From NCBI RefSeq assembly GCF_004366815.1, contig NZ_SORI01000001.1, positions 310,001-374,000 on the forward strand: a DNA stretch of 64,000 bases, written 5' to 3'. This document shows positions 29,038-32,164 of this stretch, piece after piece. A program made the position numbers and the translations under genes. This DNA is from Aminivibrio pyruvatiphilus. Its GTDB lineage: Bacteria > Synergistota > Synergistia > Synergistales > Aminobacteriaceae. Positions within the stretch are counted from its first letter, which is position 1, and every line of letters begins with the position of its first letter. The notes beneath the pieces were generated by a model that made no database searches, was not told where the DNA came from, and saw only the letters and a list, made by a program, of their open reading frames with translations.

Positions 29038-30777
29038 ATGCTCTTTTCATCGCTGAAGGAGAGGCGGGACGTCTGCTGCGTCCTGTGCGGAGCCGCGGGG
29101 CTGGGTATCCAGACCGTGGAGGACATGCTGGCGGGAATCATAGTGGACGAAGGTTTTTGCGTCTTCGGATCCAGGGAGTACATGTCCCGCGTCCGGGGCG
29201 GGAACAACTCCACCGAGCTCCGGATAGCCTCCGAACCCGTGGATGCCCTGATCGACAGGATAGATATTCTCGTTGCCCTGAGCCGGAACGTTCGCAGGAA
29301 CATCCTGGAGAGGATCACCGCCGGCACGGTCATTCTCGGAGACAGGGAGGAACTGAAGGGGGAGCTTGAAGACCTCGGAGCCTCCTATGTGGACATTCCC
29401 CTGTCGTCCATGGCGAAAGAGGCCGGGGGAAAGATCTACTCCAACTCCATCGCCGCCGGTGTCCTCCTCGGAGTGCTCGGACTGGGAACGGAAGGAGCGG
29501 AGGCTTTTTACAGGAAGCGGTTCGCCGGTAAGGACGACGTGGTGGCACGCAATATCGGAGCTGTCAGGAAGGGGTACGAACTGGGCCTTCCTCTTGCCGG
29601 TGAAGGAGGCGTACTGCAGGGCCGGTCCAGGAACCCGGGAGGGCGGAAGGTCATACTCAACGGGAGCGATGCCGTTTCCCTGGGAGCCATGGCGGCAGGC
29701 TGCAATTTCGTCACCGCCTATCCCATGTCCCCGGCGACGGGGGTGCTCTCCTTCTTCGCGAAGCACGCCGGAAAAGCGGGAGCGGTGGTGGAGCAGGTGG
29801 AGGACGAGCTCGCCGCCATAAACATGGCGGTGGGGGCTTCCTATGCGGGAGCCCGCCCCCTGGTGACTACCTCAGGGGGAGGTTTCGCCCTCATGGCGGA
29901 GGGGCTCAGCCTGGCGGGCGTCATGGAGGCCCCGGTGGTGGTGCACCTTTCTCAGAGACCGGGCCCTGCCACGGGCATGGCCACCCGGACGGAGCAGGCG
30001 GACCTGGAGCTTGCCCTTTATTCCGGCCACGGCGAATTTCCGCGGGCTTTGTTTGCCCCCGGAACCATGGAGAGTGCCTTCAGGCTGACCCAGAAAGCCT
30101 TTGAAATAGCACTGCAGTACCAGACGCCGGCCATCGTGCTGACGGACCAGTATTTCATGAACGCCTTCTACAACCTGGATTCGGACGCCCTCGAGTGGCT
30201 GGAGGAGCCCTCCCCGGTCCCGGAGACGGCGGCGGAGTACCGGCGCTACGAGGATACCGCTGACGGCTGCTCGCCCTTCGGCGTTCCCGGCTGGGGAAAG
30301 GGCATCGTGGGGGCGGACAGCCACGAGCACGACGAGGTGGGGCACGTCTACGAGGACTTCGATCTCAGGACCAGGATGCAGGACAAGCGGATGCGGAAGT
30401 TCGCGGGAATGGAGGAGTGTGCCCTTCCCCCGGTGCTGGTCGGACCGGAATCCTTCTCGAACCTGGTGATCTGCTGGGGATCCACCTTCCCCATCGTCCG
30501 GGAAGCCCTCGAATGTCTCGGGCGGGACGACACGGCCCTGCTGGCCTTCGAACAGGTGTGGCCCCTCTCGCCGTCCGCCGGGGATCTTCTGCGGAAAGCG
30601 TCGTTCACCGCCGTGGTGGAGGGAAACAGCACCGGCCAGTTCGCCGGGCTGCTTCGGAAAACCTTCGGCGTGGCGGCGGACCGCACGGTGCTGAAATACA
30701 ACGGACTTCAGTTCTCTGTGGAAGAGGTCGCGGACAGGCTCGGCGAAATTCTTCCCGGCAAAGGAGGCGGCAGATGA
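29038..30777 (+). CDS. korA: 2-oxoacid:acceptor oxidoreductase, fused gamma-alpha subunit
   Basis: A 579-residue subunit with a gamma domain (about residues 1-185, with GAAGLGIQTVEDML and SREYMSRVRGGNNS) fused to an alpha domain (about 195-579, with AAGCNFVTAYPMSPATG and the CoA/TPP contact region TSGGGFALMAEG). These enzymes oxidatively decarboxylate 2-oxoacids, such as 2-oxoglutarate or branched-chain keto acids, to acyl-CoA and pass electrons to ferredoxin. GGGAGG precedes the ATG. The beta subunit overlaps it by 4 bp. No ferredoxin-like delta subunit is encoded next to them. Confidence 0.93.
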   Translation: MLFSSLKERRDVCCVLCGAAGLGIQTVEDMLAGIIVDEGFCVFGSREYMSRVRGGNNSTELRIASEPVDALIDRIDILVALSRNVRRNILERITAGTVILGDREELKGELEDLGASYVDIPLSSMAKEAGGKIYSNSIAAGVLLGVLGLGTEGAEAFYRKRFAGKDDVVARNIGAVRKGYELGLPLAGEGGVLQGRSRNPGGRKVILNGSDAVSLGAMAAGCNFVTAYPMSPATGVLSFFAKHAGKAGAVVEQVEDELAAINMAVGASYAGARPLVTTSGGGFALMAEGLSLAGVMEAPVVVHLSQRPGPATGMATRTEQADLELALYSGHGEFPRALFAPGTMESAFRLTQKAFEIALQYQTPAIVLTDQYFMNAFYNLDSDALEWLEEPSPVPETAAEYRRYEDTADGCSPFGVPGWGKGIVGADSHEHDEVGHVYEDFDLRTRMQDKRMRKFAGMEECALPPVLVGPESFSNLVICWGSTFPIVREALECLGRDDTALLAFEQVWPLSPSAGDLLRKASFTAVVEGNSTGQFAGLLRKTFGVAADRTVLKYNGLQFSVEEVADRLGEILPGKGGGR

Positions 30778-31640
30778 TGGACTCCACGGCATTCGATCTT
30801 CCGGGAATTGATCTTTCGTGGTGCCCCGGATGCGGGGATTTCAAAATCCTCGACTCCATCAAGAAGGCCCTTGCCGAGCTCGGTCTCGGGCCCCTGGACG
30901 TGGTCATGGTCTCGGGGATAGGGCAGGCGGCAAAAACACCCCATTACATGAAGGCCCATTTTTTCAACGGCCTCCACGGACGGGCCCTCTCCAACGCAAC
31001 GGCCATCAAGGCGGCAAACCCCGCCCTGGAGGTCATCGCCGTGGGAGGGGACGGCGACATGTACGGCGAGGGCGGGAATCATTTCACCCATACCATCAGG
31101 CGGAATCCCGGGATCACCAACCTTGTGTTCAACAACATGGTCTACGGCCTCACAAAGGGGCAGGCTTCACCCACGAGCCCGAGGGGATTCCGCACCTCCG
31201 TCCAGGTGGACGGGGTCCATGCACAGCCCTTCAACCCTCTGGCAGCCGCCCTGGTACAGGGAGCGACCTTCGTGGCCCGGGCCTTCGCCGGAAACGGCGA
31301 CCAGACAAAGGAAATCATCAAGAGGGCCGTCCGACACAAGGGATACGCCCTGGTGGACATCTTCCAGCCCTGTGTTTCCTTCAACTCCGTGAATACCTAC
31401 AAGTGGTTCATGGACAACACCTACACCCTGGAGGGGCATGAGGAGGAGGATTTCGGCAAGGCCATGGAGCTGGCCCTCCTCCAGGAAGGTCCCTTCCCCC
31501 TGGGCGTTCTCTACAGGAAGGAAGGGGTTCCCCTTTTCGAGGAAACCCTGGCGGCCTACCGGAAGGACGACCGGCCTCTCTTCCGCCGGGAGGCGCCCCG
31601 GAAGGCAGTGAAGGAGCTGCTGGCCTCTATGGCCGGTTAA
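30774..31640 (+). CDS. korB: 2-oxoacid:acceptor oxidoreductase, beta subunit
   Basis: The TPP-binding beta subunit, 288 residues. It has LSWCPGCGDFKIL near the start, with Cys ligands for the single 4Fe-4S cluster of two-subunit enzymes, and the TPP-magnesium motif GGDGDMYGEGGNHF, followed by NNMVYGLTKGQ. AGGAGG lies 6 bases before the ATG that overlaps the korA stop. Exact 2-oxoacid specificity cannot be read from the sequence. The selenocysteine peroxiredoxin starts 18 bp after it. Confidence 0.93.
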   Translation: MMDSTAFDLPGIDLSWCPGCGDFKILDSIKKALAELGLGPLDVVMVSGIGQAAKTPHYMKAHFFNGLHGRALSNATAIKAANPALEVIAVGGDGDMYGEGGNHFTHTIRRNPGITNLVFNNMVYGLTKGQASPTSPRGFRTSVQVDGVHAQPFNPLAAALVQGATFVARAFAGNGDQTKEIIKRAVRHKGYALVDIFQPCVSFNSVNTYKWFMDNTYTLEGHEEEDFGKAMELALLQEGPFPLGVLYRKEGVPLFEETLAAYRKDDRPLFRREAPRKAVKELLASMAG

Positions 31641-31658
31641 GAAAGGGAGGAAACGGAC

Positions 31659-32123
31659 ATGAAGGAAGGAAACGGGCTCCCCCCGTTCCGCCTCTCCGAC
31701 GGAGACGGGAAAGAATGGACGGCGGCGGATTTTGAAGGCAGATGGCTTGTCCTCTTTTTCTACAGCAAGGACAATACCTCGGGGTGAACCAGCGAAGTGA
31801 GGGACTTTGCGGACAGGATGCCCGCATTTGAAGCACTGCACTGCGCAGTGGCAGGAATCAGCCCCGATTCGCCGGAGAGCCACCGGAAATTTGCCGAAAA
31901 ACTGGGCATTTCCTTCCCCCTTCTGAGCGATCCGGACCACGGCTTCATTGAAGCCTGCGGATTCTGGGCGGCCAAGAAAATGTACGGCAGGGAATACATG
32001 GGAGTGGAGCGTTCCACCGTCATCGCGGATCCCGGCGGGAAGGCCGTGAAGACCTTCAGGAAGGTGAAGGTGGCCGGGCACGCCGATGAGGTTCTCGAGG
32101 CACTGAAGGGACTGGCCGTCTGA
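31659..32123 (+). CDS. Peroxiredoxin (Bcp/PrxQ type) with selenocysteine at the catalytic position
   Basis: Reading through the in-frame TGA at 31785-31787 gives a 154-residue peroxiredoxin. The order is family-typical: LPPFRLSDGDGK, VLFFYSKDNTSG, then the UGA (residue 43) where E. coli Bcp has its peroxidatic Cys (TPGC), then TSEVRDF, ISPDSPESHRKFAEK, FPLLSDPDH. The coding frame is uninterrupted on both sides and AGGGAGG lies 8 bases before the ATG. The TSGU sequence fits the TxxC/U active-site pattern. Bcp's resolving Cys five residues on is absent (Val). It probably reduces peroxides and protects the oxygen-sensitive KorAB encoded just before it. Selenocysteine genes are not in the window. 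Confidence 0.9.
31792..31826 (+). promoter_or_regulatory. Candidate bacterial SECIS region after the UGA
   Basis: Two mutually exclusive hairpins follow the UGA. One has a 7-bp stem GCGAAGT/ACTTTGC (31792-31798, 31804-31810) with loop GAGGG, starting 4 bases after the UGA. The other has a 5-bp stem TGCGG/CCGCA (31808-31812, 31822-31826) with a 9-base loop containing AGGA; its loop is 25 bases from the UGA, a more usual bacterial distance. I cannot tell which one SelB would bind. Confidence 0.5.
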
Positions 32124-32137
32124 CGCGCGGAACGGAT

Positions 32138-32164
32138 GAGGCGGAGATTTTTTCCGCCTCTTTT
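32138..32164 (+). terminator. Terminator after the peroxiredoxin
   Basis: Stem GAGGCGGA (32138-32145) and TCCGCCTC (32153-32160) with loop GATTTTT, followed by four T. It separates the korAB-peroxiredoxin unit from the convergent folK. Confidence 0.75.

Follow-up and report, generated by a model that had tools for sequence, protein, structure and literature searches.

An in-frame UGA codon at the peroxidatic position of a PrxQ/Bcp peroxiredoxin gene behind korAB in Aminivibrio pyruvatiphilus

Selenocysteine (Sec)-containing peroxiredoxins of COG1225 (Bcp), which carry a TxxU motif, constitute an established bacterial selenoprotein family (PMC1088965, PMC9312934, PMC5029168). The family has been reported to comprise 43 genes (PMC1088965) or 91 selenoproteins in 78 organisms (PMC5029168), and Synergistetes has been named as a selenoprotein-rich phylum (PMC5029168). 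An earlier survey listed five Cys-to-Sec events and no Sec-to-Cys event for this family (PMC1794560). A further selenoprotein peroxiredoxin, PrxU, is known from the Eubacterium acidaminophilum work of Sohling 2001, as cited in PMC9312934. In bacterial SECIS elements, the loop lies 16-37 nt from the UGA codon (PMC10778597) and contains a G (PMC1088965), and selenium is known to withstand over-oxidation (PMC8533274).

We analysed a window of 64,000 nucleotides from A. pyruvatiphilus (contig NZ_SORI01000001.1, positions 310,001 to 374,000), in which a first-pass annotation, made from the letters alone, had proposed a selenocysteine peroxiredoxin hidden by an in-frame UGA (Table 1), with the remark, correct as shown above, that peroxiredoxins of the selenoprotein type are known. 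Translation with TGA read as U bore out the proposed frame, which starts with ATG at 31659, has TGA as codon 43 within the motif DNTSG-U-TSEV, and ends with the stop codon at 32121-32123. The ribosome-binding site that had been called good is GGGAGGA, and a GGAGG-like site is also present in most of the orthologs. Under table 11, this frame yields a single ORF of at least 60 aa, which starts with GTG and covers only the C-terminal part (31797-32123), exactly the fragment that a gene caller had been expected to report.

Table 1. Features in the window and related loci, with window positions or locus coordinates
Feature	Position	Strand	Evidence and remarks
korA-like, 2-oxoacid:acceptor oxidoreductase alpha subunit	29038..30777	+	TIGR03710, 589.6 bits, cut-off 482.75
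korB-like, 2-oxoacid:acceptor oxidoreductase beta subunit	30774..31640	+	TIGR02177, 339.3 bits, cut-off 261.9
GGGAGGA ribosome-binding site	31645..31651	+	7 nt 5' of ATG; read directly
Sec-containing Bcp/PrxQ peroxiredoxin gene	31659..32123	+	154 residues; span includes the stop codon
UGA, predicted Sec43 codon	31785..31787	+	peroxidatic Cys position, TxxC/U motif T40-S-G-U43
Predicted bacterial SECIS hairpin, UGCGGACA-GGA-UGCCCGCA	31808..31826	+	loop 31816-31818; covariation
AhpC-like peroxiredoxin	L039:870-1469		between korB and Sec-PrxQ
Selenium cluster (own genome, contig C18)	L120:750-4194		cysteine-desulfurase/Sec-lyase-like gene, selD, YedE selenium transporter
Second selenoprotein peroxiredoxin, PrxU type (own genome, contig C20)	L119:2332-3057		NF040737, 385.8 bits, cut-off 270

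The read-through protein matched Pfam AhpC-TSA (PF00578) over residues 5-128 with 113.5 bits (cut-off 26), and a PDB sequence search matched PrxQ crystal structures to residues 12-151 (E 3.5e-36). In this alignment against Bcp/PrxQ, which had been suggested as a check, the UGA is aligned with the peroxidatic residue of Xanthomonas PrxQ, Cys48. The scores against the NCBIfam models NF053650 (PrxQ; 143.8 bits, curated cut-off 260), NF006960 (thiol peroxidase; 110.9 bits, curated cut-off 140), and NF040737 (PrxU; 36.8 bits, curated cut-off 270) were all below the curated cut-offs. An AlphaFold2 model, for which C was written in place of U, had a mean pLDDT of 96.2, and the fold search with this model placed PrxQ/Bcp structures on top, with TM values of 0.90-0.97 for the best ten; the predicted fold is thus that of PrxQ. 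An Rfam search at the locus returned nothing meaningful.

The gene also ends in a UGA, its true stop codon. An 8-bp hairpin with a T run (32138-32164) lies past this codon and appears to be a terminator common to the peroxiredoxin gene and the convergent folK. The loop of this hairpin begins 22 nt past the stop UGA, inside the SECIS range, and the stop codon is TAA or TAG in 6 of 16 Sec orthologs.

In a search of 188 genomes of the phylum Synergistota, the 28 closest matches were clear orthologs. Sixteen of these, spread over three families (f1, f2, and f7) and seven genera, have exactly one in-frame TGA each, all at the same alignment column, and the other 12 have Cys there, in agreement with the first-pass placement of the TGA at the peroxidatic position. 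Most homologs outside the phylum also carry Cys at the Sec43 column, and Thr40, position 43, and Arg118 are invariant in 41 aligned homologs. Substitutions are largely synonymous on both sides of the UGA. Within the window's family, most members have Ka/Ks values of ~0.06-0.25, and the exceptions are two comparisons of the N-terminal part, which gave 0.45 and 0.60 (37 and 42 codons). Judged from these ratios, which are well below 1 in nearly all comparisons, purifying selection acts both 5' and 3' of the UGA. Since 16 genomes share the TGA column and both flanks are under purifying selection, the UGA is due neither to chance nor to a sequencing error.

We analysed the region 3' of the UGA for a SECIS element. 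RNAalifold, applied unprompted to 15 UGA orthologs, returned a 7-bp hairpin with a triloop, which is GGN in 13 of the 15; it begins 28 nt 3' of the UGA, and the interval in Table 1 counts an eighth pair. Five of the eight pairs have changed on both sides among these orthologs, and the covariation score of 0.304, compared with 0.146 ± 0.026 after shuffling, was reached by none of 500 shuffles and by none of the slid versions. The Cys orthologs were without the hairpin, with 53% of cells paired, about as in the slid controls, and a search of the 188 genomes with the hairpin pattern matched solely Sec-peroxiredoxin genes. Hairpins at other distances are present in the sixteenth UGA ortholog (L027), with its own at +21, and in three Selenomonadales Sec forms, at +17. 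The window copy contains one A.C mismatch, and its 51-nt fold alone favours a different hairpin; against synonymous-codon shuffles, this single sequence reached a modest p = 0.034, and the combined test gave p = 8.5e-5 for eight Sec-lineage representatives versus 0.63 for eight Cys representatives. Single-sequence folding of the 51-71 nt 3' of the UGA gave unremarkable z-scores, and the hairpin emerged only from the alignment. With its GGN triloop at 28 nt and covarying stem, it has the small G-containing loop at 16-37 nt from the UGA that is characteristic of bacterial SECIS elements, and the selenocysteine reading thus gained support beyond that in the first-pass annotation.

The host genome also encodes the machinery for selenocysteine. 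A search for selA, selB, selC, and selD, as had been advised, found all of them: a gene for tRNA-Sec (74.5 bits against a cut-off of 47; anticodon UCA by ARAGORN), adjacent selA (557.8 bits) and selB (above the cut-off), and selD, which carries its own in-frame UGA (L120:1952) and sits between the Sec-lyase-like gene and the YedE transporter (482.6 bits). Hairpins with GGC and GGUC loops lie 3' of the UGA codons of selD and prxU, respectively, the latter codon being at L119:2584. Of the 16 genomes that carry the UGA form, 15 have a selB gene that scores above the cut-off; the exception (G122) is an assembly with 86% completeness. As a discriminator between Sec and Cys forms, the presence of selB was rejected, because all 12 Cys genomes also have selB above the cut-off.

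These results bear on several other accounts of the UGA. Were it a nonsense mutation in a pseudogene, or a miscall of TGC or TGT, from which TGA is one base away, the truncated frame that is the only one found under table 11 would be accounted for; however, 16 genomes from three families share this UGA, the codons on either side are under purifying selection, and a covarying hairpin lies 3' of it, which makes this account exceedingly improbable. Neither of the two findings named at the outset as able to overturn the proposal, a genome without selB or selC and a TGC or TGT at 31785, was upheld: the Sec genes are present, and UGA is kept at this codon in 15 other genomes, which refutes the account of a mutation or miscall. 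Termination at the UGA, with the piece from GTG 31797 as the product, is scarcely more credible. The GTG-start ORF exists, but its product would have neither the N-terminal strands nor the active site, and yet the 42 codons 5' of the UGA are conserved at the protein level, with Thr40 and position 43 invariant among the aligned homologs. It is also highly improbable, if a little less so, that decoding of the UGA frequently yields Cys or some other residue in place of Sec, for example under selenium scarcity: Cys works at position 43 in 12 orthologs, but the genome has the complete Sec machinery and the gene a SECIS-type hairpin. On these comparative data, we are therefore nearly certain that this is a gene for a selenocysteine-containing PrxQ/Bcp peroxiredoxin, the UGA of which would be read via the downstream hairpin.

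As the first-pass annotation had noted, the resolving Cys of Bcp is missing, and Arg48 occupies the CP+5 position (E. coli Bcp type) and Ala79 the position of Xanthomonas Cys84. None of the 19 Sec forms examined has Cys at either known PrxQ resolving position, and since the Cys orthologs of the phylum are also without the classical resolving Cys, its absence does not set the Sec forms apart. Among the 16 Synergistota Sec orthologs, five contain no Cys besides Sec, so that at least these cannot form an internal Se-S bond, and the resistance of selenium to over-oxidation would suit an enzyme without a resolving Cys. Because the known resolving positions have no Cys, the selenenic acid would most likely be reduced by an external thiol redoxin, and we infer such a 1-Sec cycle as the simplest and a reasonably probable reading. 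An alternative is that the gene and its UGA are real but the enzyme is a two-residue peroxiredoxin, in which C62 or C100 resolves via an intra- or intermolecular Se-S bond. Within the window's family, which has ten Sec orthologs, nine do retain both residues. Such a mechanism is unlikely, as the tenth ortholog (G103) has neither residue, the f2 and f7 Sec orthologs are without both, neither residue aligns in the PDB alignment with a resolving position known for PrxQ, and a core strand begins at C62 in the predicted model. In the reading that we favour, SelB would deliver Sec-tRNA-Sec to UGA 43, directed by the hairpin 28 nt downstream, and the selenolate of Sec43, with T40 and R118 holding it in place, would attack H2O2 or an organic peroxide. 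Sec43 would thereby be turned into selenenic acid, for subsequent reduction by the external thiol redoxin.

The gene adjoins korAB, as originally described, with korA and korB directly upstream on the same strand and 18 nt between the end of korB and the ATG, and with folK and folP downstream on the opposite strand. Across the orthologs, an upstream korB accompanies 16 of 16 Sec forms versus 3 of 12 Cys forms (Fisher p = 3e-5, uncorrected for shared descent). In the f2, f5, and f7 families, korB and the PrxQ gene are separated by a match to another peroxiredoxin. The linkage of korAB with the Sec form is suggestive of a shared function, although not proof of one, and the same-strand position suggests that the peroxiredoxin is co-transcribed with korAB and perhaps guards the oxygen-sensitive 2-oxoacid:ferredoxin oxidoreductase. 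The conserved place behind korAB thus offers a testable hypothesis, the protection of an oxygen-sensitive enzyme in anaerobes.

To trace the Sec and Cys states, we built a tree of 59 homologs with the Sec/Cys column omitted. The observed pattern needs four changes, at least three of them by well-supported branches. The grouping of all 16 Sec forms was weakly rejected (p-AU 0.03), and a single origin is thus weakly disfavoured. In contrast, 15 of these forms have the hairpin at one position to within a base, which speaks for a Sec state inherited from a common ancestor, and the changes may thus have run in either direction. The Sec-PrxQ sequences of three Selenomonadales MAGs (L073, L090, and L091) form a separate branch, and together with the different distance of their SECIS-like hairpin, this points to a possibly independent origin. 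A Cys PrxQ from a Thermoplasmata archaeon MAG (L057:6001-6450), with 55% identity to the window protein, falls amid the Synergistota forms, reflecting either gene transfer or a binning error.

Taken jointly, the data could describe the Sec form as a 1-Sec PrxQ branch behind korAB, a dedicated guard of 2-oxoacid:ferredoxin oxidoreductase with redoxin electrons that are perhaps ferredoxin-linked, and with several Sec/Cys switches within the order, possibly including Sec-to-Cys; this whole combination is speculative and quite unlikely to hold in every part. Gene callers that treat UGA as a stop would probably halve the peroxiredoxin gene and lose its catalytic half. The presence of Sec and Cys versions within one order, some of the Sec forms without any other Cys, amounts to a natural experiment on selenium retention at a peroxidatic site.

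Finally, we compared the window protein with the described systems. It resembles the Cys PrxQ/Bcp of Xanthomonas campestris (PDB 5iiz, 3gkm, and 5iph) in its predicted fold (TM 0.90-0.94, with 43-45% identity in the structural alignments) and in the invariant T40, position 43, and R118, but differs from it in having predicted Sec for the peroxidatic Cys48 and Ala79 at the position of the resolving Cys84. Unlike the classical 2-Cys Bcp/PrxQ enzymes, it has no resolving Cys at either CP+5 or the Cys84 position. With PrxU (AhpC/Prx1 type, NF040737), it shares Sec at the peroxidatic position, but the two belong to different peroxiredoxin subfamilies. It fits the COG1225/Bcp Sec-peroxiredoxin family (exemplar WP_011365628.1), with which it shares the fold family, a peroxidatic Sec, the TxxU motif (T40-S-G-U43), and a SECIS element directly 3' of the UGA; this comparison was by described features, and found no difference that would exclude membership. 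In all features that can be judged at the sequence level, the gene thus adds a well-supported member to this already known family, to which the korAB link and the Sec/Cys switching within one order each contribute a modest extra.
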